A model generated the notes under the pieces. The model ran no database searches and had not been told where the DNA came from. It was given only the letters and a program-made list of their open reading frames with translations. Source: Glaciimonas sp. CA11.2 (GTDB lineage Bacteria > Pseudomonadota > Gammaproteobacteria > Burkholderiales > Burkholderiaceae_D). Taken from it: a stretch of DNA of 64,000 nucleotides. The stretch spans positions 1,116,001-1,180,000 of the forward strand of contig NZ_JAVIWL010000001.1 in NCBI RefSeq assembly GCF_034314045.1, given 5' to 3'. Both the position numbers and the translations under genes were made by a program. Positions 33,422 through 46,426 of the stretch are shown here, piece after piece. Each line of letters starts with the position of its first letter. Position 1 is the first letter of the stretch.

Positions 33422-34138
33422 ATGCGTATTTTACTCGCTGAAGATGATAGTGTTTTAGCCGACGGACTCACCCGTTCATTACGCCAATCCGGTTACGCGA
33501 CCGACTGCGTGCTGAACGGTATGGAAGCTGACTCGGCATTATCGACACAAGATTTCGATCTGTTGATCCTTGATTTAGGACTGCCGAAAATGGCTGGTCT
33601 GGAAGTACTACGCCGCCTGCGCGCACGTAACTCACGTTTGCCGGTGCTGATATTAACCGCAGCAGACTCCATCGAACAGCGCGTCAAAGGGCTTGATCTG
33701 GGCGCCGATGATTACATGGCCAAGCCATTTGCGCTCTCGGAACTCGAAGCGCGCGTGCGCGCGCTTACGCGCAGAGGTGCTGGCGGTGGCCCGACCGTGA
33801 TCAAACATGGTCCGTTATCTTACGATCAGGTTGGCCGGATCGCCTATATCAGCGATCAGATGCTGGATTTATCCGCGCGAGAAATCGGATTACTGGAAGT
33901 GTTGCTGCAACGGACCGGTCGTCTGGTATCGAAGGAACAGTTGGTCGATCACTTGTGTGAGTGGGGTGAAGAAGTCAGCAATAATGCCATTGAAGTCTAC
34001 GTACACCGGTTACGCAAAAAAATCGAAGTCGGCGGTGTGCGGATTGCGACTGTGCGCGGATTGGGTTATTGCCTCGAAAAAATTGCTGAGGTGCCTGCCC
34101 CGCAAACGCCGCCAGCTACCTTCTCCAGTACAAAATAA
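33422..34138 (+). CDS. OmpR-family response regulator
   Basis: 238 residues. Receiver domain (1-115) with acidic pocket EDD (7-9), phosphoacceptor Asp51 in LLILDLGLP, Thr79 and Lys101. A winged-helix DNA-binding domain (about 128-222) ends in the usual RLRKKIE...VRGLGYCLE. It lies 9 bases before the sensor kinase gene and is probably co-transcribed. It is of the QseB/TctD subgroup by sequence pattern, with a Pro-rich tail. Likely targets are the transporter genes downstream. Confidence 0.95.
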   Translation: MRILLAEDDSVLADGLTRSLRQSGYATDCVLNGMEADSALSTQDFDLLILDLGLPKMAGLEVLRRLRARNSRLPVLILTAADSIEQRVKGLDLGADDYMAKPFALSELEARVRALTRRGAGGGPTVIKHGPLSYDQVGRIAYISDQMLDLSAREIGLLEVLLQRTGRLVSKEQLVDHLCEWGEEVSNNAIEVYVHRLRKKIEVGGVRIATVRGLGYCLEKIAEVPAPQTPPATFSSTK

Positions 34139-34147
34139 TTTCCTCAG

Positions 34148-35746
34148 ATGCGTGACGACCAAATCATGGCCGCGCAGGCTTCCAGCATACCCCTCTCGGA
34201 TCGGGATCATATAGTCGAATCCGAGATCGGTCTCGATCTCGGATTCGACCCGAGCGTGGCGTTAGAAAGTGAATCGAAAGAACGCATTCAACGCTCACTA
34301 TTCGGCGAGATTCTTGACTGGATGTTGGTGCCATTGCTATTACTATGGCCGATGAGTATCGCCATCACGTATTTAGTGGCTAAGTCCATTGCCAACCAGC
34401 CATTTGACCGCGCATTGGATGATAGCGTCACAGTCTTATCACAACAGGTTAGTCAAGCCAACGGTAAGGTCGTTACCCGCTTATCGGGTGCAGCGCGCGA
34501 TTTTTTGCGTGCCGATGATATCGACAATATCTATTTTTTGATCACCGGCCCCAAGGGTGAATATGTCGACGGCGACCGGGAAATGCCAGCGATTGCCCCG
34601 GATGAGGATCCACCGCATGCAGGCACCGTACAATTTCATAATGGATCGATGCATGGCACCGACGTGCGGGTGGCGTACACGTATGTCGATTTGCGTAACG
34701 ATGCAGCTAGCGCCAACATCAATGATCCGGCGCCGCCGATGGCGTTGGTGCAAGTAGGGGAAACGCTGGAAAAACGTGCACAGTTAGCCAATGAAATCAT
34801 CAAGGGAGTGATCTTGCCGCAGTTTTTGATTCTGCCGATCGCACTCGCACTCGTCTGGTTTGCCTTGTCGCGCGGTTTATCACCGCTATCCGAATTGCAG
34901 CAACGGATAAGAGCTCGACGACCTGATGACTTAAGCCCCATTGATTCCGGTCAGGTTCCCGAGGAAATATCGCCTTTAGTACGCTCGCTCAACGACATGC
35001 TCTCACGTCTTTCACAGACGATACAAACCCAAAAACGTTTTATCGCTGACGCCGCGCATCAAATGAAAACGCCGTTGGCGGGCATGCGCATGCAATCCGA
35101 ACTGGCGCTGCGCCAAACGGACGGTCACGATATTCGTCGGTCCCTTGAGCAATTGGCGAAGAGTTCAGATTCTGCCACGCGCCTTGTAAATCAACTGCTC
35201 TCGTTAGCGCGTGCAGAAAATCAAACCCAGGAAAATACCGCTCTCATTCCTATTGAATTGTCAGAGTTGGCACGCAACGTCGTGGGCGACTGGGTACAAG
35301 CATCGTTTACACAGCGTATCGATCTGGGCTTCGAAGAAGCGCCACAACCTCTCCTTGTCATCGGCAATCCAATGATGCTGCGAGAGTTGATGAGCAATTT
35401 GATTGATAACGCGTTGCATTACACGCCGCCAGAAGGCCACGTGACGGTGCGCATTCGTGCCGGAGAAAATAAGCAAGAGGCAATTCTGGAAGTAGAAGAT
35501 ACCGGCCCAGGTATCCCGCCAGCGGAGCGTGAACGTGTGTTCGAGCGTTTCTATCGCATACTTGACAGCAATCGGAGCGGAAGCGGTTTAGGGCTCGCTA
35601 TCGTGCGGGAAATAGCCCAACAACATGACGCTGACGTCAGTATTTTTTACAATCCTCGTTGCGACGATCAAAAGCTGCCAGGGTGTTTATTTCGCGTCAC
35701 ATTCAAGCAAACTTCCCCAGCTAATTTTCGTGATGAATATCGCTAA
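34148..35746 (+). CDS. TctE-like sensor histidine kinase
   Basis: 532 residues. About 55 cytoplasmic residues precede the first membrane helix (DWMLVPLLLLWPMSIAITYL). The periplasmic sensor region of the 2CSK_N/TctE type starts near NQPFDRALDDSV, and a second helix is near 222-240. The H-box is RFIADAAHQMKTPLAGMR (His near 304), the N-box NLIDNALHYTPPEG, with G-boxes DTGPGIPP and GSGLGLAIV. Relatives sense tricarboxylates or related acids. The gene has a perfect 16-bp inverted repeat in its 5' coding part (34214-34249). Confidence 0.94.
   Translation: MRDDQIMAAQASSIPLSDRDHIVESEIGLDLGFDPSVALESESKERIQRSLFGEILDWMLVPLLLLWPMSIAITYLVAKSIANQPFDRALDDSVTVLSQQVSQANGKVVTRLSGAARDFLRADDIDNIYFLITGPKGEYVDGDREMPAIAPDEDPPHAGTVQFHNGSMHGTDVRVAYTYVDLRNDAASANINDPAPPMALVQVGETLEKRAQLANEIIKGVILPQFLILPIALALVWFALSRGLSPLSELQQRIRARRPDDLSPIDSGQVPEEISPLVRSLNDMLSRLSQTIQTQKRFIADAAHQMKTPLAGMRMQSELALRQTDGHDIRRSLEQLAKSSDSATRLVNQLLSLARAENQTQENTALIPIELSELARNVVGDWVQASFTQRIDLGFEEAPQPLLVIGNPMMLRELMSNLIDNALHYTPPEGHVTVRIRAGENKQEAILEVEDTGPGIPPAERERVFERFYRILDSNRSGSGLGLAIVREIAQQHDADVSIFYNPRCDDQKLPGCLFRVTFKQTSPANFRDEYR
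34214..34249 (+). repeat. Perfect 16-bp inverted repeat inside the kinase gene
   Basis: GTCGAATCCGAGATCG (34214-34229) is followed after GTCT by its exact reverse complement (34234-34249). It lies 66 bases into the coding region, in the variable N-terminal tail of the kinase, and would form a very stable mRNA hairpin. Confidence 0.85.
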
Positions 35747-36009
35747 AAGCGTATTGCAGTTTAGCGGTTGCGTGAGTAAAAAATATGATTAAAAAGCCAG
35801 TGTAAGAAGTCTGTAATACAGGAAAAAATAAGCAGAGGAAAGTCGCAAGTCAGTAGAAAATAAGCACAGAAAATGTTAAATAAATGCAGCTTACTGCCTC
35901 CGCAATCTTGAGGTTCAAAGGTAAAGGAGCTGCATAAAAAGTCCCTTAAAGTACTCGCCAGATTGTAGCGCGTTCAATGTTTTTGATTCTTTGATTGTTG
36001 ACTAAAACC

Positions 36010-36342
36010 ATGGCCCAATCCGTCCCTCAGAATATCGCTGCTCGCAATGCCAGACACTGGCGCAGGACCAAAAAACTGACTTTCAGCCTGTTACTGATTT
36101 GGTTTTCGGTCACGTTTCTTGTGATTTTCTTTGCGCGAGAATTATCAAGCGTTACCGTGTTCGGATGGCCCTTATCTTTTTATATGGCCGCACAAGGATT
36201 GGTCGTGATTTACCTCCTACTCGTCGGTATATATACCTGGCAAATGGGACGATTTGACCGTGATGCCGATATGACTTTGCCCGATCCAAAGCTGCGCGCA
36301 ATGAAGTCGTCTCAACTGGCTGAACTCAATAATGAAAAGTAA
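36010..36342 (+). CDS. DUF4212 small subunit of a sodium:solute symporter
   Basis: 110 residues from the ATG at 36010 (a TTG at 35995 is possible). Two membrane helices: LTFSLLLIWFSVTFLVIFF and a second around FYMAAQGLVVIYLLLVGIY, then a short charged tail. DUF4212 proteins are always next to VC_2705-type symporters and are thought to form a two-part transporter. The end overlaps the symporter start by 11 bases. Confidence 0.92.
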   Translation: MAQSVPQNIAARNARHWRRTKKLTFSLLLIWFSVTFLVIFFARELSSVTVFGWPLSFYMAAQGLVVIYLLLVGIYTWQMGRFDRDADMTLPDPKLRAMKSSQLAELNNEK

Positions 36343-38383
36343 GTCATTCTTATCGCGTTTGACGCGCTATTACGCTTGGTACACCGCAGGCTTCATTGGC
36401 TTTCTGATCATTCTCGCCATCCTCGAAAAAGAAGGATTTCCACGCTCCTGGATTGGTTATATGTTCATGTTCGCTACCATCGCCCTGTATGCGGGCATTG
36501 GCGTCGTTAGCCGGACATCCGACGTGTCGGAATATTACGTTGCGGGAAGACGTGTACCGGGAATTTTTAACGGCATGGCAACGGCTGCCGACTGGATTTC
36601 GGCAGCAACTTTCATCAGCTTGGCCGGGGGCTTATATTTGCAGGGCTTTGATGGTCTCGCCTATATCATTGGCTGGACCGGCGGCTACTGTCTGGTTGCG
36701 CTCCTCATTGCGCCTTATTTACGCAAATTCGGTCAGTACACTATTCCGGACTTTTTGGCCGCACGCTACAGCGGCCGCATTGGTGGTCGGTATGGCGGCA
36801 ATCCAGTTCGCATTTTGGCGGTAATCGCCACTGTACTCATCTCATTTACATACGTGGTGGCACAAATTTATGGTGTCGGACTTATCACGTCGCGCTTCAC
36901 TGGCGTCGATTTTTCCGTTGGCATTTTTCTCGGTCTTGCCAGCATTTTGGTTTGTTCATTTTTAGGTGGAATGCGCGCGATTACGTGGACGCAAGTGGCG
37001 CAGTACATCATCATTCTTTTTGCCTACTTGATTCCCGTCATCTGGCTATCAGCCAAACATACACATAATCCAATTCCGCAATTTGCATATGGCTCGGTCA
37101 TGACGCAATTAAGCAATATTGAAAAAACGTTGAGCGATGATCCCAAAGAATTAGAGGTGCGGAGTATTTACAAAGCACGTGCCGAAGCATTCGACAAGCG
37201 CTTGAACAATTTGCCTCAATCCTGGACGCAAGGTCGGATCGAAGCACAGCGCGAACTTAAAGCCTTAAAACATAGCAGTGACACTTCGCTGATCGACATT
37301 CGCGTTGCCAATCGTAAGTTGAGCGAATATCCAAAATCACCGGAAGAAGCCCAGCAGAGATGGAGAGATGCCAAAGCCCTCAATCTGGCGCACGCCGAGC
37401 CACCCACGCCACAAGCAACCCCATTTCCGGGCAAGGATAAAGAAGCATCGGATATTAAACGTAACAACTTTTTGGCAGTAGTGTTTTGCCTGATGCTAGG
37501 GACAGCCGCATTGCCGCATGTGTTGATGCGCTACTACACCACGCCATCGGTACAAGAAACGCGTAAATCGGTTTTCTGGACGCTGTTTTTTATTTTATTG
37601 ATCTACCTGACGGTCCCTGCTTTAGCGGTATTGGTCAAGTACGACATCTATACTTCATTGGTCGGGACCGAGTACGCGCATCTACCAAACTGGGTGTCGT
37701 ATTGGGCCAATATCGACAAAACTAATCCGCTGGTCAGCATCATCGACCTGAATCATGATGGTATCGTACAGTTATCGGAAATATCGCTGGACGGTGACAT
37801 GATCGTATTGGCGACACCAGAAATTGCCGGATTGCCCTATTTCATTTCAGGATTGGTTGCTGCGGGCGGTTTAGCAGCAGCGCTATCCACTGCCGATGGC
37901 CTGCTTTTAACGATCTCTAACGCGCTATCACACGACGTTTATTACAAAATGATTGATCCGGTGGCCTCCACACAAAAGCGCGTTACGATTTCCAAATTGC
38001 TGCTACTCGTCGTGGCGTTGCTGGCGGCTTATACCGCGTCGTTAAAACCCGGCGATATTTTGTCTATGGTTGGAGCGGCATTCTCACTCGCCGGTTCGGC
38101 ACTTTTCCCCGCGCTCATGCTTGGTGTATTTTGGAAAAGAGCCAATCAACACGGTGCCATTGCCGGGATCATTGCCGGATTCGGCATGTGCGTGTTTTAC
38201 ATGTTGCACACCCTTCCTGCATTGGGCGGGTCCGTCACGGGGCAGTGGTTTCACATTGCTCCCATCTCAGCTGGCGTTTTTGGCGTCCCAGCTGGATTGC
38301 TGACGATGATAGTCGTCAGCTTACTGACACCACCACCGGATGCACGCACGATGGCGTTGGTCGATTATATTCGTGCGCCTTGA
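36332..38383 (+). CDS. Sodium:solute symporter, VC_2705 subfamily (ActP-like)
   Basis: 683 residues, a member of the SSS family with about 13 membrane helices. The family signature is seen as TAADWISAATFISLAGGLYLQG and GGLAAALSTADGLLLTISNA. A hydrophilic insert of roughly 120 residues (about 255-375) with coiled-coil character separates helices. A loop near residue 472 reads DLNHDGIVQLSE, a full EF-hand consensus. Relatives carry acetate and other short acids. With the TctE-like sensor upstream, an organic acid is the probable substrate, which is inference. Confidence 0.93.
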   Translation: MKSKSFLSRLTRYYAWYTAGFIGFLIILAILEKEGFPRSWIGYMFMFATIALYAGIGVVSRTSDVSEYYVAGRRVPGIFNGMATAADWISAATFISLAGGLYLQGFDGLAYIIGWTGGYCLVALLIAPYLRKFGQYTIPDFLAARYSGRIGGRYGGNPVRILAVIATVLISFTYVVAQIYGVGLITSRFTGVDFSVGIFLGLASILVCSFLGGMRAITWTQVAQYIIILFAYLIPVIWLSAKHTHNPIPQFAYGSVMTQLSNIEKTLSDDPKELEVRSIYKARAEAFDKRLNNLPQSWTQGRIEAQRELKALKHSSDTSLIDIRVANRKLSEYPKSPEEAQQRWRDAKALNLAHAEPPTPQATPFPGKDKEASDIKRNNFLAVVFCLMLGTAALPHVLMRYYTTPSVQETRKSVFWTLFFILLIYLTVPALAVLVKYDIYTSLVGTEYAHLPNWVSYWANIDKTNPLVSIIDLNHDGIVQLSEISLDGDMIVLATPEIAGLPYFISGLVAAGGLAAALSTADGLLLTISNALSHDVYYKMIDPVASTQKRVTISKLLLLVVALLAAYTASLKPGDILSMVGAAFSLAGSALFPALMLGVFWKRANQHGAIAGIIAGFGMCVFYMLHTLPALGGSVTGQWFHIAPISAGVFGVPAGLLTMIVVSLLTPPPDARTMALVDYIRAP

Positions 38384-38463: not shown

Positions 38464-38480
38464 CTGGCACGGGAATTGCT
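38464..38480 (+). promoter_or_regulatory. Sigma-54-type promoter
   Basis: CTGGCACGGGAATTGCT matches the -24/-12 consensus TGGCAC-N5-TTGC exactly. It lies 225 bases upstream of the cupin gene and 80 bases behind the symporter stop. No enhancer site was identified and no RpoN activator gene is in the window, so this rests on the sequence match. Confidence 0.6.
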
Positions 38481-38704: not shown

Positions 38705-39184
38705 ATGGATGCGCAAAACACCAATGACCAAACCGTTCCAAAAACCGCGTTTTCTCATATACGCGAGGGCGATACTGCATTTGAACCTGGTGGTCTCCGG
38801 GATTTTTTCCTATATCGCGATTTAGGTATTAGTGCGGCCACAGGTGGCCAGGTCATCGCTCAGTTGGTGAAGGCGAACATGGCACCAGAAGAAGGCACTG
38901 GCTGGCATCGACATGAAGCAAAGTTTCATATGGTCTACATGCTCAAAGGTTGGGCACGCTTCATGTATGAGGACCAATTAACGCTGGTCAACGCGGGTGA
39001 TTGCGTGCACCAGCGCCCCGGTATAGTGCATTTTTTATTCGACTACTCTCCCGACATGGAATATCTGGAAGTTGTTGGCCCCGCTAATTTCACCTCAATC
39101 GATGCGCCCGCTCCGTGCGCAGTACCGAAACCAACACCTTGGTTTTCCGAGTTAACTGAAAGCTCAACTATCAATAGCGAATAA
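38705..39184 (+). CDS. Cupin-domain protein
   Basis: 159 residues, a single cupin. Motif 1 is GWHRHEAKFHMVYMLKG with metal-ligand histidines, and motif 2 follows as NAGDCVHQRPGIVHFLFDYS. The N-terminus (AFSHIREGDTAFEPGGLRDFFLYRDLGI) is shared with a group of small stand-alone cupins of unknown activity. The Shine-Dalgarno AAGGACAG precedes the ATG. A sigma-54-like promoter lies upstream. The substrate is unknown. Confidence 0.88.
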   Translation: MDAQNTNDQTVPKTAFSHIREGDTAFEPGGLRDFFLYRDLGISAATGGQVIAQLVKANMAPEEGTGWHRHEAKFHMVYMLKGWARFMYEDQLTLVNAGDCVHQRPGIVHFLFDYSPDMEYLEVVGPANFTSIDAPAPCAVPKPTPWFSELTESSTINSE

Positions 39185-39347: not shown

Positions 39348-40763
39348 ATGGCAAATTTTTTCGATGAAATGTACACCGATGGTTCCGACGTTGCTCGTCC
39401 CCATTATGGTGAGTTTTCAAACTGGCTTGGACAGCAATCGGCCGAAACGATTGCTAGAAAACGCGTTGAAGCAGATGTCATTTTCCGTCGTGTCGGCATC
39501 ACCTTTGCAGTGTATGGCAACGACGCCGGTACCGAACGACTGATCCCTTTCGATATTATTCCACGCATCATTCATGCCGCCGAATGGTCGGTGCTGGAAG
39601 CAGGGCTGATTCAGCGTGTTAAGGCGCTGAATATGTTCATCCATGATATTTATCATGATCAAAACATCATCAAGGCCGGCGTGATCCCTGCGGAACAAAT
39701 TTTCCGCAATGCGCAGTACCGCCCTGAAATGCAGGGTATTTCAGTGGCCTCGGATATTTATGCGCACATTGCAGGCGTCGATATCGTACGCGCTGGTCAA
39801 GGCGAATTTTATGTATTAGAAGACAATCTGCGTGTCCCGTCCGGCGTGTCTTATATGCTAGAAGACCGCAAGATGATGATGCGCCTGTTTCCAGAATTAT
39901 TCACACGTCATAAAATCGCACCGGTTGATCATTATCCTGACATGTTGCTCGATAATTTGCGCTCCGTGGCACCAGTTGGTGTTACCGATCCAACGGTCGT
40001 GATCATGACGCCGGGGATGTATAACTCAGCGTACTTTGAGCATGCATTTTTAGCGCAGCAAATGGGCGTTGAGCTAGTCGAAGGAAAAGACTTGTTTGTC
40101 GACGATAACGCAGTATATATGCGCACCACGCGTGGACCAAAACGCGTCGACGTCATTTATCGCCGAATCGATGATGACTATCTGGATCCGCTGGCGTTCC
40201 GTCCGGACTCTACACTTGGTGTGCCCGGTTTGCTATCGGTCTATCGTGCGGGCGGCGTCACGTTGGCGAACGCTATCGGTACCGGCGTGGCTGATGACAA
40301 ATCGATTTATCCATACGTTCCCGACATGATCAAGTTTTACATGGCGGAAAAACCGATTCTCAATAATGTCCCGACTTTTCAGTGTCGCAAAAAAGACGAT
40401 CTGGCATACACCTTGGCGAATCTTAAAGATCTGGTCGTCAAGGAAGTCCACGGCGCTGGTGGTTATGGCATGCTGGTCGGTCCGGCATCGACGAAGCAAG
40501 AAATCGAAGATTTCCGTGCTCGCGTGATCGCCAATCCAGAAGGCTACATAGCCCAGCCAACATTGGCGCTCTCAGCCTGCCCTACTTATGTTGAGGCCGG
40601 GATTGCCCCGCGCCACATCGACCTGCGACCATTTGTTCTTTCGGGAAAAAACGTTTCGATGGTACGTGGTGGACTGACGCGCGTGGCGCTCAAAGAAGGC
40701 TCGCTCGTCGTCAATTCGTCCCAAGGCGGCGGCACCAAAGACACCTGGATACTGGAGAAATAA
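39348..40763 (+). CDS. Circularly permuted ATP-grasp protein (Anbu cluster)
   Basis: 471 residues, the old DUF404/DUF407 pair. Regions typical of the family are FDEMYTDGSDVARPHYGEF at the N-terminus, FYVLEDNLRVPSGVSYMLEDR, FKEVHGAGGYGMLVGP-like VKEVHGAGGYGML, and the end ALKEGSLVVNSSQGGGTKDTW. Circularly permuted ATP-grasp enzymes are predicted amide ligases that join amino acids or peptides using ATP. One base separates it from the alpha-E gene, so the two are in one operon. Its partner genes are the transglutaminase and Anbu peptidase further on. Confidence 0.94.
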   Translation: MANFFDEMYTDGSDVARPHYGEFSNWLGQQSAETIARKRVEADVIFRRVGITFAVYGNDAGTERLIPFDIIPRIIHAAEWSVLEAGLIQRVKALNMFIHDIYHDQNIIKAGVIPAEQIFRNAQYRPEMQGISVASDIYAHIAGVDIVRAGQGEFYVLEDNLRVPSGVSYMLEDRKMMMRLFPELFTRHKIAPVDHYPDMLLDNLRSVAPVGVTDPTVVIMTPGMYNSAYFEHAFLAQQMGVELVEGKDLFVDDNAVYMRTTRGPKRVDVIYRRIDDDYLDPLAFRPDSTLGVPGLLSVYRAGGVTLANAIGTGVADDKSIYPYVPDMIKFYMAEKPILNNVPTFQCRKKDDLAYTLANLKDLVVKEVHGAGGYGMLVGPASTKQEIEDFRARVIANPEGYIAQPTLALSACPTYVEAGIAPRHIDLRPFVLSGKNVSMVRGGLTRVALKEGSLVVNSSQGGGTKDTWILEK

Positions 40764-40764
40764 C

Positions 40765-41778
40765 ATGTTGAGCCGCACCGCAGATCACTTATTCTGGATG
40801 GCCCGTTACACCGAGCGCGCTGAAAATATTGCACGCATGCTGGATGTACATTTGCAAACAGGCATGTTGCCGCAGGCGGATGAAGACGTTGAGCAAGGCT
40901 GGCGTGCCCTCCTCGGCATCTCCGAGCTACAGGAGGCTTATGATAAGCGACATAAAACATTGACACCGCAAAACGTCATCGATTTCATGGTCCGCGACCC
41001 GGCTAACTCATCCTCTATTTCCGCCTGCCTTACTCAGGCGCGGGAAAATGCACGCGCAGTGCGGGGAGCATTAACCACGGAAGCCTGGGAAATCCAAAAT
41101 GCCACCTGGCTAAAAATGCAGGGCTATCTGAAAACTGATGCGCTAGATCAAAACCCTGCAGAATTTTTCGAATGGGTCAAACATCGCTCGCACCTCTCAC
41201 GTGGCGTGACAATCGGCACCATGCTGAAGGATGAAGCATTTCACTTTATCCGCCTCGGGACTTTTTTGGAGCGTGCAGATAATACTGCACGGATCATTGA
41301 CGTCAAGTTTCATAGCGCCAATGAGAAGCAGCAAAAACAATCTCAATCTCAGTCCCAATCGCAAGATCAGGAACAAAAGCACGAACAGGCACTCGAAGCG
41401 AAGACCGAGCCGCAAATTGACTTCTACTATTGGGCAGCAATCTTGCGTTCGGTTTCAGCGTTTGAAATTTATCGTAAGGTGTATCGTGACGTCATCACGC
41501 CGGCACGCGTCGCTGACTTGCTGATTTTGCGCGCGGACATGCCACGCTCACTTGCGGCATGTATGGAAGAGGTCCTCAATAATCTGAAACACGTCAGCAA
41601 TAATGTATCAGCTGATACGGAGCGCTTCGCTGGCAAGTTGCATGCTGAACTTCAGTTCGGTAGCATTGATGAAATTCTTGAGGCCGGTCTGCACGATTAT
41701 TTGACGGTATTTTTCGAGCGCATCTTTGAATTGGGCAATCGTATCAGCCGTGACTTTCTGGTTCCACTAGCGGCCTGA
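40765..41778 (+). CDS. Alpha-E domain protein (DUF403)
   Basis: 337 residues, all alpha-helical, starting MLSRTADHLFWMARYTERAENIARMLD, the family hallmark (given here in two parts: MLSRTADHLFWMARY, TERAENIARMLD). A glutamine-rich insert at about 188-212 (QKQSQSQSQSQDQEQKHEQ) interrupts the fold and comes from short CAR-TCN repeats. The second half has RTADNTARIID-like ERADNTARIIDVKF. Always linked to circularly permuted ATP-grasp genes, with its activity unproven. Confidence 0.93.
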   Translation: MLSRTADHLFWMARYTERAENIARMLDVHLQTGMLPQADEDVEQGWRALLGISELQEAYDKRHKTLTPQNVIDFMVRDPANSSSISACLTQARENARAVRGALTTEAWEIQNATWLKMQGYLKTDALDQNPAEFFEWVKHRSHLSRGVTIGTMLKDEAFHFIRLGTFLERADNTARIIDVKFHSANEKQQKQSQSQSQSQDQEQKHEQALEAKTEPQIDFYYWAAILRSVSAFEIYRKVYRDVITPARVADLLILRADMPRSLAACMEEVLNNLKHVSNNVSADTERFAGKLHAELQFGSIDEILEAGLHDYLTVFFERIFELGNRISRDFLVPLAA

Positions 41779-41808
41779 CCGGCCTCTGCTCCACTTCCGC
41801 TAACTATC

Positions 41809-42627
41809 ATGCTGCTGACCATCAGGCACGAGACGATTTATCACTATACCGAAGAATTAACCTACACGATTCAACAGTTGCGATTGACGCCACGTCCCGA
41901 AGAGCATCAGCGCACACTTAACTGGCATATCACCAGTTCCGGTGTGCGCAATCCCTTCACGGATGCGTTCGGCAATCTGAGTCATATGTTGACCATCACG
42001 GGTCGGCATAACGAAGTCAGGATCGTTGCCGAAGGCAGCATCGCGGTCACCCCCTTGTACTTGGGGCGATTGCCACAAACCGGTGCAGTTTCTCCACTCG
42101 TGTTCACCGTAGCAACATCGCTGACCCAAGCGACGCCAACGATCATCGAGTTTGCCCATCGTCACTTATCACGTAATCCAAACAGCGAGGATTTAGTCAC
42201 GCTGGCGCAAGCCATTTGCAATGCGGTCACCTATCAAAGTGGCTCCACGCTAGTCACCAGCAGCGCAGATGATGCATTACGACTGGGCCAAGGTGTTTGC
42301 CAGGATCATGCACATTTATTTCTTGCCTGCTGCCACGCTGTTGGCATCCCGGCCTGTTACGTGTCCGGCTATATCGATCCGGGGAATAGCGATCACGCTG
42401 AAAGCCACGCGTGGGTAGATGTGTGGGTGGCCCAGTCAGATTTTACAGGCTGGGTAAGCATTGATGTCACCCACGCGTGCTTTGCCAGCGATGCCTATTG
42501 TCGGCTGGCGATCGGCCGCGATTACGACTCAGCCGCACCAGTTCGGGGCGTTCGTCGTGGTGGCGGAGAAGAAACCTTGAGTGTCAGTGTCCATGTCAGC
42601 GCTAAAGCGCTAAGTTTAAGTCCATGA
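41809..42627 (+). CDS. Transglutaminase-like cysteine protease family protein
   Basis: 272 residues. An N-terminal beta domain begins MLLTIRHETIYHYTEEL. The transglutaminase core has catalytic Cys in GQGVCQDHAHLFLACC, His in ESHAWVDVWV and Asp in WVSIDVTHAC. The end RDYDSAAPVRGVRRGGGEETLSV in parts matches family members next to alpha-E proteins. It is predicted to act as a peptidase or amide-bond-transferring enzyme in the same pathway as the ATP-grasp ligase. It starts 30 bases behind the alpha-E gene. Confidence 0.94.
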   Translation: MLLTIRHETIYHYTEELTYTIQQLRLTPRPEEHQRTLNWHITSSGVRNPFTDAFGNLSHMLTITGRHNEVRIVAEGSIAVTPLYLGRLPQTGAVSPLVFTVATSLTQATPTIIEFAHRHLSRNPNSEDLVTLAQAICNAVTYQSGSTLVTSSADDALRLGQGVCQDHAHLFLACCHAVGIPACYVSGYIDPGNSDHAESHAWVDVWVAQSDFTGWVSIDVTHACFASDAYCRLAIGRDYDSAAPVRGVRRGGGEETLSVSVHVSAKALSLSP

Positions 42628-42848
42628 TAGTGCGCACTAGAAGATATGCTGATGCATGACACTTCGTTTCAACGCATGAAAAGCAATCCCTGACGGAGCT
42701 TAAATACACATTCAAAATATAATAGTTCCAACATGAAATATAGTGGAAAATCGACTTGTTGCATCTTGATGTGCGTGTTACTAGTTAGATAACCAGGATT
42801 AAATGGCTATGCTGTAAAATCCATTTTTTGTATTTTGAGCTCTACATC

Positions 42849-43718
42849 ATGACTTATTGTGTTGCTATGCGCCTGAAGGCCGGACTCGTTTTCTTGTCCG
42901 ATTCGCGCACCAATGCTGGCGTTGATCACGTCAGCACTTTTCGTAAAATGAGTGTCTTTGAGAATCCTGGCGAACGCATGCTAGTCATGATGACTGCTGG
43001 CAACTTATCCATTTCGCAATCGATTAAACAAATCATTTCAGAACACACTAATGCCGATGGCAAAAGTATCTGGAACGCCACCTCAATGTACGAGGCAGCG
43101 CAAATAGTAGGCGCCGCTATTCGGTTGGTGTACGAGCGCGATGCGAGCGCCTTGCAAAAATTTGGCATCGACTTCAACGTCGGCATCATTTTTGGTGGCC
43201 AGATCAAAGGTGAGCGCTGCCGTTTGTTTCAGATTTATTCGGCAGGCAATTTCATCGAAGCGCATGACGAAAATCCCTACTTCCAGATTGGTGAATCCAA
43301 ATACGGCAAACCGATCATCGACCGCGTGTTGGCTGGATCGGAAATCACCCTAGATCAGGCTGCGAAGTGTGCGCTGATTTCAATGGATTCAACGTTGCGC
43401 TCCAATCTATCGGTTGGCTTGCCGCTAGATCTGCTGGTATATGAAAGTGGACAATTGGCCTTGACCCGCTTCGTCACTATCGATTCGAAAAATGAATATT
43501 TCAAATCCATTTCGAGCGGTTGGTCTAGTCGCTTGAGAGAAGTTTTCGACGAAATCGAAGACCCGGTCTGGCACACGGTAGCAACTGCCGTCGATTCAGC
43601 AGCGTTGAAAACCGATCAACGTCAACCCTTGGTAACGATGCCAAAAGAAATCAATTGGGTTGGCACGCCAGCGGCACTACAAACGCTGGCCCAGAATGAC
43701 GAAACGGGGCAAAAGTAG
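42849..43718 (+). CDS. Anbu, proteasome-type N-terminal nucleophile peptidase
   Basis: 289 residues from the ATG at 42849. This start is required by the chemistry: Met removal exposes Thr1 (MTYCVAMRLKAGL), while a start at 42828 would bury it. Counting from that Thr, Asp17 and Lys32 (SDSRTNAGVDH, STFRKM) sit as in proteasome beta subunits (Thr1, Asp17, Lys33). Homologues form open spiral or ring oligomers rather than a closed four-ring core. Their natural substrate is unknown. The gap to the transglutaminase gene is 221 bases, so it may have its own promoter as well. Confidence 0.95.
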   Translation: MTYCVAMRLKAGLVFLSDSRTNAGVDHVSTFRKMSVFENPGERMLVMMTAGNLSISQSIKQIISEHTNADGKSIWNATSMYEAAQIVGAAIRLVYERDASALQKFGIDFNVGIIFGGQIKGERCRLFQIYSAGNFIEAHDENPYFQIGESKYGKPIIDRVLAGSEITLDQAAKCALISMDSTLRSNLSVGLPLDLLVYESGQLALTRFVTIDSKNEYFKSISSGWSSRLREVFDEIEDPVWHTVATAVDSAALKTDQRQPLVTMPKEINWVGTPAALQTLAQNDETGQK

Positions 43719-44158: not shown

Positions 44159-45772
44159 TCAAAAATGCCCGCGAACAAATCCATGAACGTCAGTAATCAT
44201 GGAACCACAAGCAAAAGCTCCCTCACTGGTTGATGTAAATCGCAGTTTCATATCCTCATTGCTTGGTTCAAATATCATTTCTAAAGGCCTCCAGTTCGGC
44301 GTCAAATAATGAGAGGAATTTTTGTTGGCGCTACCAATATTAAATGCTTTACTGGCGATGACCGTACCTGCACGGTCAAGCGCTTCCAACATAAAAGTCT
44401 GATCTGCACCTAGAGCAAGACCCTTCCCACATTTTGGCATTACATTGTTTCCTGCGTAGAAAGAAATCTTCAAATTTCCCCTACGGGACTCATCCAAAGC
44501 TTTTAAGCTACCTTCAATCACACCTGCTTCGCCACCATTTGCTCGAGTACTGTTCAACATAACCGCTCTGGTATTTCCAGGAAGACTTTTGCCAATGATC
44601 TTATCGGTATACAACGTCACTGCCTTCAATGCTTCCCAACTGCCAAAATTGCCAACCACGACCACACCGGGATCTTCTTTATTTATTGGATGCTCCAGGA
44701 ATTTTCCATCATCAACAAGATGGCGCTCCACCTCAACACAGGCTGCCTCTCCTGTTGCGGCCTCTTGAGAATTATCGACAGCCGTGACGACTATATTGCC
44801 ATCGACTTGCATTGATGCTGGGAGATTCAAACAGTGTCCGTAATTATTTAAATTCACATGTGCATTCGTACCATTGACCATCCACGACACGTTACGAAAT
44901 TTGCCATGAGAATCCAGAGCAGATATCGTCACCGTGTCTGTACCCGCAATACGATAGATTGGATAGCCATCTGATCGGGTTGCGGGTCTATTGACCTGCA
45001 AAGTGAGTTCATGCCCGAAAGGGCCTTCTGCAGTAGTAGCGACATCTACTTTCCCCAAAGGGGTTGGATCAAATTTTGCATAATAAGGATTTGCTTGATA
45101 TTTTGTGAAATTATTACTGTGCTTACTTCCGTTAGATACTCTTTCTGGAACCGAAAAAACCCCGCGAATGAACTGACGTTTAAAGCCGCCAGGAAAAGCA
45201 ATTTCATTCGTAAAGTGATCTCCGGAATATTTAGGAAGGGTGTTATTTACGTTGATCCCGCCAGGAGCATCAATCATGTACAACATATCACCGTAAAAAG
45301 AAGTAACGGAAGAGCTATATGTTGTGCTTTTTAAGGCCGACTCCTTGCCGGAAATACCATGATAGAACGGTTCCAGAGTAAGATTTCCGTCCACTGTTTT
45401 ACCAGGAATATCTCCTTTTTGAAAAATATCATCAGGGTTGACGTGACTTTTTATGGCACGAAGCTGCCAACGCTTATCGTTACGCCACACCATGGGTAAA
45501 TCTTCGCCGCTGGGATTATTCACCGCGTTGTGGCCCGGTGCTGCCGTTAGATCAACACAAATCGTAGTGGTCGCTTTTAGCCAGTCCTGATAATAACGCT
45601 GCTCTTTTATTGCATCAGTTGCCCAAATCGGCTCTTTTCCCTTAACCGGCAAACACTCCTCCGGTACAACATAGGGCACATCGATATCGCCAAGTGTCTG
45701 CGCAGACAAAAGAGGACTAAAAGAACAAAGAGCGGCAACGCTACTCAAACAAAATAGAGATATTTTTTTCAT
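44159..45772 (-). CDS. Secreted protein of unknown function
   Basis: 537 residues from the ATG at 45772, which begins a good Sec signal (MKKISLFCLSSVAALCSF...LLSA, cut near SAQ). The frame is open 46 codons further but that part is not signal-like. No clear Shine-Dalgarno precedes the start. The mature part has six cysteines, many Asn, Gly and Ser, and an alternating beta-strand pattern. The last about 150 residues (from GNFGSWEALKAVTLYTD) look like a galactose-binding or carbohydrate-binding beta-sandwich. I do not recognise the family. It stands alone in gene-poor DNA, so horizontal gain is possible. Confidence 0.7.
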   Translation of the reverse strand: MKKISLFCLSSVAALCSFSPLLSAQTLGDIDVPYVVPEECLPVKGKEPIWATDAIKEQRYYQDWLKATTTICVDLTAAPGHNAVNNPSGEDLPMVWRNDKRWQLRAIKSHVNPDDIFQKGDIPGKTVDGNLTLEPFYHGISGKESALKSTTYSSSVTSFYGDMLYMIDAPGGINVNNTLPKYSGDHFTNEIAFPGGFKRQFIRGVFSVPERVSNGSKHSNNFTKYQANPYYAKFDPTPLGKVDVATTAEGPFGHELTLQVNRPATRSDGYPIYRIAGTDTVTISALDSHGKFRNVSWMVNGTNAHVNLNNYGHCLNLPASMQVDGNIVVTAVDNSQEAATGEAACVEVERHLVDDGKFLEHPINKEDPGVVVVGNFGSWEALKAVTLYTDKIIGKSLPGNTRAVMLNSTRANGGEAGVIEGSLKALDESRRGNLKISFYAGNNVMPKCGKGLALGADQTFMLEALDRAGTVIASKAFNIGSANKNSSHYLTPNWRPLEMIFEPSNEDMKLRFTSTSEGAFACGSMITDVHGFVRGHF

Positions 45773-46426
45773 GATATTTAACATATAAAACGCCACAAAT
45801 TCTATGGCATAGATTGAATCGAACAGGGAAAACTTATTTGGAAGAAAGAGACGACTGCATCGCCTTGCAACAAAGCGAAAACGACACAGATCATGCGCGG
45901 CCGACCCCATGCTAATATCACCGTCGCCCCTTTTGAGGGTCCAGGTGCCAGCAGCAGTGACTTGTGAAAACAGCTCGCCTTAGGCGGATGCGCTCAAGGG
46001 TCTTATCATCACCCCAATAAGAAACTCAATGGCCATTGCAACGCGTGCTAAATCCCCGCAATGCAAGCAATGTCGATGCAGCGAAACTATTTGAGGTCAC
46101 AGATTCAACTCACCGACAATTCGGGTGTTTGTCTGACTCCTAGCCACGTGAAGATAATATCAGTACGACATAATTTTTAAATCCAGACGAATCTGAAAGT
46201 TGAGTAAGGCTTTTCTTTTTTTTAAAAGAAAAAATCTTAGGCATTAGAAATCTACGCAGCATTAATAAATGGCAGCACTAAATCATGGGATTTTCGCCAG
46301 GCGCTTAAAGATTTTTAATCATCCCGGAAAACTTCGTCGTCTGGAATGATCATCCGGCAGGCGCTTCACCGCGCGACTGTATAGATGCAAGGATTGTATT
46401 TACTTTTACATCATTGGTTTCCACGT
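45773..46426. other. About 650 bases without a gene
   Basis: No convincing frame on either strand. It includes an AT hairpin TTTTCTTTT/AAAAGAAAA near 46210-46232. The promoter of the secreted protein must lie near the left end. No IS ends, tRNA or attachment-like repeats were seen. Confidence 0.4.

Follow-up and report, generated by a model that had tools for sequence, protein, structure and literature searches.

The Anbu gene cluster of Glaciimonas sp. CA11.2: a possible nitrogen-responsive module for amide-bond synthesis and turnover

We analysed a 64,000-nucleotide stretch (the window) of contig NZ_JAVIWL010000001.1 of Glaciimonas sp. CA11.2, in which four neighbouring genes make up the published Anbu operon, its four gene families standing in the published order. 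All coordinates below are positions in the window unless the contig is named, and all genes of the cluster lie on the plus strand. We tentatively read the cluster as a module for amide-bond synthesis and turnover that is induced by nitrogen limitation, with Anbu on the breakdown side; this is the most probable of the readings weighed here, although the case for it falls a little short of an even one. Its basis is the gene identities, conserved residues, co-inheritance and conserved sigma-54 boxes observed here, to which relatives would add, by analogy, induction by nitrogen limitation, dependence on NtrC, phosphate release by the ligase and the removal of Met that exposes Thr1. To the published kind of cluster the window adds a conserved promoter with a cupin gene at its head, a counted one-way dependence and a motif in the Anbu tail; the sigma-54 site, the cupin, the tail and a second module in the genome also go beyond a preliminary description of this DNA.

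In the proposed mechanism, nitrogen shortage would raise the expression of the cupin, ATP-grasp, alpha-E and transglutaminase genes through the sigma-54 promoter, and Anbu is probably also transcribed from a promoter of its own. The ATP-grasp and alpha-E proteins would activate a carboxylate with ATP and couple it with an amine; the product, peptide-like or an isopeptide, would then be cleaved or transferred by the papain-like enzyme of transglutaminase type and by Anbu, a Thr1 protease, with recovery of amino acids or amine nitrogen. Candidate substrates are a small metabolite, a storage peptide or a protein tag. We infer that regulation here matches that in the relatives, and likewise which way the chemistry runs, how the proteins share the work and what class of substrate they use. 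The preliminary description had likewise supposed that the ligase makes an amide bond and that Anbu degrades the product, and we keep this as a supposition.

Gene identities and the putative sigma-54 head

The first gene of the cluster (39348..40763, +) encodes a circularly permuted ATP-grasp protein of 471 residues, a predicted amide ligase, which matched PF14403 at 559.5 bits (4.2e-168; cut-off 32) and has a close solved relative by PDB sequence comparison (3n6x, 4.5e-234). It is followed after 1 bp by the alpha-E gene (40765..41778, +; 337 residues; PF04168 at 326.4 bits, 2.8e-97, cut-off 20.8), for which no PDB relative was found by sequence at E <= 1 and whose AlphaFold2 model is all-helical with a mean predicted local distance difference test score (pLDDT) of 85.3. 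The transglutaminase-like (papain-like thiol) enzyme, 30 bp further on (41809..42627, +; 272 residues), matched PF01841 at 72.5 bits (4.3e-20; cut-off 23) and PF08379 at 2.6e-19, with only a weak solved relative by the same comparison. Its residues C164, H200 and D219, which we take to be the catalytic triad from knowledge of the superfamily, were invariant in 47 family sequences, that of the window included. Anbu, a proteasome-like N-terminal nucleophile hydrolase of 289 residues, lies beyond a gap of 221 bp (42849..43718, +). It was assigned because solved Anbu chains match, PF00227 itself giving only 8.3e-05; five distinct chains matched strongly (three named Anbu, two named peptidase), the best being 5loy (1.6e-84), which covers residues 2-241. 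The four genes and their order, as claimed in the preliminary description, are thereby borne out by open reading frames (ORFs), Pfam matches and Anbu chains, and the closest named protein matches are from Glaciimonas.

Upstream of the cluster, a putative sigma-54 (-24/-12) element, TGGCACG-N4-TTGCT, was found at 38465..38480 (+) with 0 mismatches. Genes of nitrogen starvation often use promoters of this type. The element has no second perfect match in the window and stands 224 bp before a cupin-domain gene (38705..39184, +; 159 residues; PF07883, 1.1e-08), the first gene behind it; the pattern TGGCACG-N4-TTGCW is thus present in the gap upstream of the cupin. In the whole genome (5.5 Mb) there were 7 perfect sites, vs 1 for a reversed control.

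Of the 76 family loci fetched, 12, from three genera, have a cupin gene ahead of ATP-grasp, and all 12 have the sigma-54 site with 0-2 mismatches. When three named cupin loci are included, the 15 loci divide into 9 with 0 mismatches, 5 with one and 1 with two. In eight chosen locus pairs the 11 box bases were identical in seven and agreed at 10/11 in the eighth, and the 120 bp flanks of the site agreed at only 21-38% (ungapped). Loci of the Collimonas and Herbaspirillum types have the site followed by a glutathione S-transferase gene, the cupin and the ATP-grasp gene in turn; in a Herbaspirillum metagenome-assembled genome with neither of the first two genes, the ATP-grasp ORF begins 163 bp after the start of the site. 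Among named-genome alpha-E loci (80 kept of at least 589), the 2.5 kb before the ATP-grasp gene held 4 perfect sites vs about 0.7 expected and 9 sites with at most one mismatch vs about 2.8 expected, and in the rest of the family a site with no more than one mismatch lies within 400 bp of the ATP-grasp ORF in 7 of 79 loci (about 0.4 expected), the loci behind all these counts being related and so not independent. Cupin genes were confined to Glaciimonas, Collimonas and Herbaspirillum among the 80 kept loci and were not seen beside the cluster in the wider samples, where one weak cupin match lay 3.7 kb from Anbu.

The intergenic stretch between transglutaminase and Anbu (42628..42848, +) was aligned from four Glaciimonas-type genomes. 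No conserved ORF was seen in it; its final ~75 bp show higher conservation within the genus and resemble a promoter, so that Anbu may have its own promoter.

Published data on relatives, cited here from extracts of the papers concerned, bear on the inducing condition. In Burkholderia cenocepacia the cluster I35_5080-5083 (DUF404/407, DUF403, transglutaminase, large transglutaminase) resembles the window in its ATP-grasp, alpha-E and transglutaminase genes; the extracts give values in the ntrC regulon table of -8.2, -9.4, -9.4 and, for the large transglutaminase, -6.0, and name these genes as sigma-54 and NtrC targets (PMC5491218). It differs in the large transglutaminase and in that no Anbu stands in the listed cluster, the genome itself not having been searched. 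Pseudomonas putida PP_2685-PP_2688 has a proteasome-like protein, a transglutaminase, a hypothetical protein and an ATP-grasp protein in a row, as in the window, and is induced by nitrogen limitation: PP_2686-2688 rose 11-15 fold in the wild type under nitrogen limitation, with NtrB/NtrC named as putative regulator (PMC7801951), and on nitrate vs ammonium PP_2685 and PP_2688 reached log2 values of 4.44 and 3.99, the PP_2688 promoter being induced 3.7-fold (PMC8050072). Unlike the window, this locus comes with no mention of a cupin in the extracts, and one data set shows it still induced when rpoN is mutated. In marine metagenomes these domains are reported to be linked to urea-metabolism domains (PMC3597751). 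Since the sigma-54 site is conserved and relatives respond to nitrogen limitation or NtrC, nitrogen starvation is likely the inducing condition, and the element suggests a condition under which to hunt for the substrate.

Co-inheritance and locus architecture

Genomes were sampled from the family (116), the order (200) and the phylum (249), some being common to several samples. The search for Anbu used a single protein or a single alignment, that for alpha-E a Pfam model, which detects fused proteins as well; the co-occurrence counts and p values ignore relatedness. In the family, 78 genomes have Anbu, 84 alpha-E and 77 both (one-only counts 1 vs 7), and a Bact_transglu_N protein occurs in 83/116, among them 76 of the 78 with Anbu. 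The genes thus co-occur in related genomes; their failure to do so had been named in the preliminary description as grounds for giving up its view. The order sample gave 107 with Anbu, 113 with alpha-E, 103 with both, 10 with alpha-E only and 4 with Anbu only, three of these four being weak, fragmentary or from an incomplete genome. In the phylum the figures were 85, 132 and 84, with Anbu only in 1 and alpha-E only in 48. Anbu is therefore seldom found without alpha-E and alpha-E often without Anbu, a one-way dependence for which the phylum sample gives strong evidence (p about 2e-13). Alpha-E here stands for the ligase pair, because 78 of the 80 kept named loci have an ATP-grasp gene nearby. 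The dependence suggests a genetic order, the ligase coming first, that may help in finding the substrate.

The preliminary description had called the four-gene set complete, which holds for the window; the set is not rigid in relatives, the four genes forming one group in 46 of the 75 family Anbu loci that were fetched. Another 11 have ATP-grasp, alpha-E and Anbu with no small transglutaminase between, fused ATP-grasp/alpha-E and transglutaminase genes stand in front in 4 and in between in 5, and the remaining 9 are split, divergent or have Anbu alone in the stretch. Among the 80 kept named loci, Anbu is present in 25/28 with the small transglutaminase and in 2/36 with fused genes or a DUF2126 set. 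In 60 Anbu-centred loci outside the family, the small transglutaminase was found in 28, a fused or DUF2126 set in 18 and no partner within the fetched stretch in 9. The small transglutaminase therefore predicts Anbu, and the reverse does not hold.

In one genome of the window's own genus, Anbu and the remaining three genes are all retained, on two different contigs. The genome of CA11.2 carries a second amidoligase module about 145 kb downstream of the cluster (about 1304715-1311935 of the contig), with a fused ATP-grasp/alpha-E gene, a transglutaminase gene and a gene for a 1112-residue transglutaminase-DUF2126 protein; no Anbu was found in the fetched stretch. Another arrangement, seen in a single genome of the order, has an Anbu gene on either side of an ATP-grasp/alpha-E pair, beside a transglutaminase-DUF2126 gene.

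The preliminary description also proposed looking for a small co-inherited substrate gene. This search was negative: among 366 small ORFs near the cluster there was no family common to three or more genera, the genome elsewhere not having been searched for a tag gene. A metabolite or ordinary proteins are therefore favoured as substrate over a tag encoded next door.

Active site and C-terminal tail of Anbu

The longest ORF of Anbu begins with TTG at 42828, and the start shared with homologues is the ATG at 42849 (MTYC...). With this start, Thr stands directly behind Met, and the active-site residues become Thr1, Asp17 and Lys32 after removal of Met. M1, T2, D18 and K33 were invariant in alignments of 12 and 36 rows, both including the window, in agreement with the Thr1/Asp17/Lys32 assignment made before. 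The window protein thus has proteasome-type residues and no propeptide. In other Anbu, which also lack a propeptide, removal of Met exposes Thr1 (PMC5666114), so that Thr1 would be expected as the processed N-terminus here. Outside the order, one Anbu of the sample has an MSYC start, with Ser in the place of Thr1.

At 289 residues, the window Anbu is longer than the solved chains (240-251 residues). A tail of ~48 residues (242-289; 43572..43715, +) extends past their end and is predicted to be disordered, lying below pLDDT 50 (about 33-39) in the monomer model. At least 30 residues follow W241 in 70/75 family Anbu. The motif LQTLAQ (residues 277-282; 43677..43694, +) is conserved in the family: the pattern Q-[TSAIV]-[LVF]-[AT]-[QEDG] occurs within the last 30 residues of 67/75, and in 65 of these it stops 7-9 residues short of the C-end. 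This degenerate pattern has one other match in the genome, the reversed controls giving 2 and 1. Most Anbu listed from the order and phylum samples are tail-less or have another tail, and a few other families have a similar motif. Tails seem to be clade-specific, since another family of the order shares a different C-end (e.g. KKITNxxEKLI, in five loci).

A short conserved motif in a disordered tail may be a binding or regulatory element, and it suggests a new handle on the substrate. The family-specific tail, with its PVRV-like and LQTLAQ-like motifs, might serve the operon partners as a tether, a gate or an intrinsic mimic of the substrate, and through it they would switch on, in nitrogen starvation, the Anbu activity that published tests on Anbu by itself did not detect; we consider this speculative and rather improbable. 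In LQTLAQ, the Gln could be where a transglutaminase acts. The C-terminal helix of Anbu is discussed in PMC5666114; no mention of the tail motif was met in the extracts of that paper or in the literature search.

The proposed amide-bond turnover and its alternatives

The published operon, known from Yersinia bercovieri, Pseudomonas and others, has the same four families, in an order stated in PMC6376114, and the same Thr1/Asp17/Lys32; the window differs from it in the cupin and sigma-54 head and in the disordered Anbu tail with LQTLAQ. Its ATP-grasp protein releases phosphate from ATP (PMC6376114). The preliminary description was correct that peptide synthesis or tagging has been predicted for such a set, a prediction that both PMC5666114 and PMC6376114 credit to Iyer 2009. 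Structures of Anbu have been solved, yet the literature searched, as far as the extracts go, names no substrate, activity or partner, and no paper naming a substrate of the operon was found in it.

Several points weigh against a nitrogen-induced turnover module. Most other family loci have no close sigma-54 site, and several sites fell inside mostly antisense ORFs under automatic ORF picking. NtrC-like boxes upstream of the window site occur near the background rate, which leaves NtrC involvement here open to doubt, and the 163 bp gap between cupin and ATP-grasp contains a genus-conserved promoter-like stretch, which leaves read-through from the sigma-54 site uncertain. The perfect sites of the genome are not a pure set of nitrogen genes: of the other six, one each lies before genes for a transporter-type binding protein, an aldehyde dehydrogenase and a 3-hydroxyacyl-CoA-dehydrogenase-like protein, one is inside a gene and two are ambiguous, the ORF letters having been read by eye with no family search. 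The one-sided dependence is weak in the order (4 vs 10, p 0.18) and the family (1 vs 7, p 0.07), and Anbu, not being bound to the small transglutaminase, has no single cutting partner. In P. putida, induction persists in the rpoN mutant at 14-20 fold, with urtA at 11 fold too, and Anbu itself is up only 1.12 fold in the wild type (PMC7801951); the PP_2685 upstream fragment is nitrogen-agnostic (PMC8050072). In published assays three standard substrates revealed no peptidase activity of Anbu, and specific complexes with its operon partners were not detected (PMC6376114). The extracts of PMC5666114 favour protein degradation and rate a role in peptide synthesis as less likely.

Next in rank comes protein tagging, which is possible and in our view doubtful: the ligase pair would tag proteins, the transglutaminase-like enzyme would edit the tags and the Anbu split ring would degrade the tagged proteins, recycling amino acids in starvation. 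In mycobacteria the Pup-proteasome pair tags and degrades in this way, the actinobacterial system combining a glutamine-synthetase-type ligase with a proteasome-type peptidase in starvation. The likeness is a working analogy at most, resting on an amide ligase, a proteasome-type peptidase and starvation; the window differs in its ATP-grasp ligase, in the tag gene not found beside the cluster, in having no ATPase among the four genes and in the protease, Anbu as a class being known as an open, dodecameric split ring. The rarity of Anbu without alpha-E and the proteasome-type active-site residues are consistent with tagging, as are the nitrogen-starvation link in relatives (PMC5491218, PMC7801951) and the proteasomal recycling of amino acids under nutrient limitation mentioned for M. 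smegmatis (PMC4617892). Against it, Pfam found no unfoldase among the four genes, no small tag gene is co-inherited among the 366 ORFs, and of the 132 phylum genomes with alpha-E 48 lack Anbu.

Anbu could also be a stand-alone recycling protease that is merely co-regulated with a separate ligase/transglutaminase pathway, which we regard as unlikely. Its possible own promoter, the nitrogen-agnostic PP_2685 fragment (PMC8050072) and the undetected complexes (PMC6376114) would suit such a protease, as would the genomes that carry Anbu apart from the ligase genes, the window's genus included, and the 9/60 partnerless loci. Against this, separated genes are still retained in the same genome, Anbu without alpha-E amounts to 1/85 in the phylum and 4/107, mostly doubtful cases, in the order, and 25/28 small-transglutaminase loci have Anbu. 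A pathway like that of ribosomally synthesized and post-translationally modified peptides, in which a ribosomal precursor would be modified by ligase and transglutaminase and lose its leader to Anbu, recalls the ATP-grasp ligases of graspetides (PMC8939145) and is very improbable, neither a small ORF family common to three or more genera near the cluster nor, in four Glaciimonas-type genomes, a conserved ORF between transglutaminase and Anbu having been seen.

Two further features flank the cluster. Just downstream of Anbu, a 583-residue ORF (44159-45910, -) has a Scabin-like, toxin-like ADP-ribosyltransferase domain (PF22596, 8.5e-13) and no match in other family stretches at 1e-5. Upstream of the cupin, positions 33422-38383 hold genes for a response regulator, a sensor kinase, a small membrane protein, presumably DUF4212-like, and a TIGR03648 symporter, which many genomes of the family have close to ATP-grasp, in some cases at less than 100 bp.

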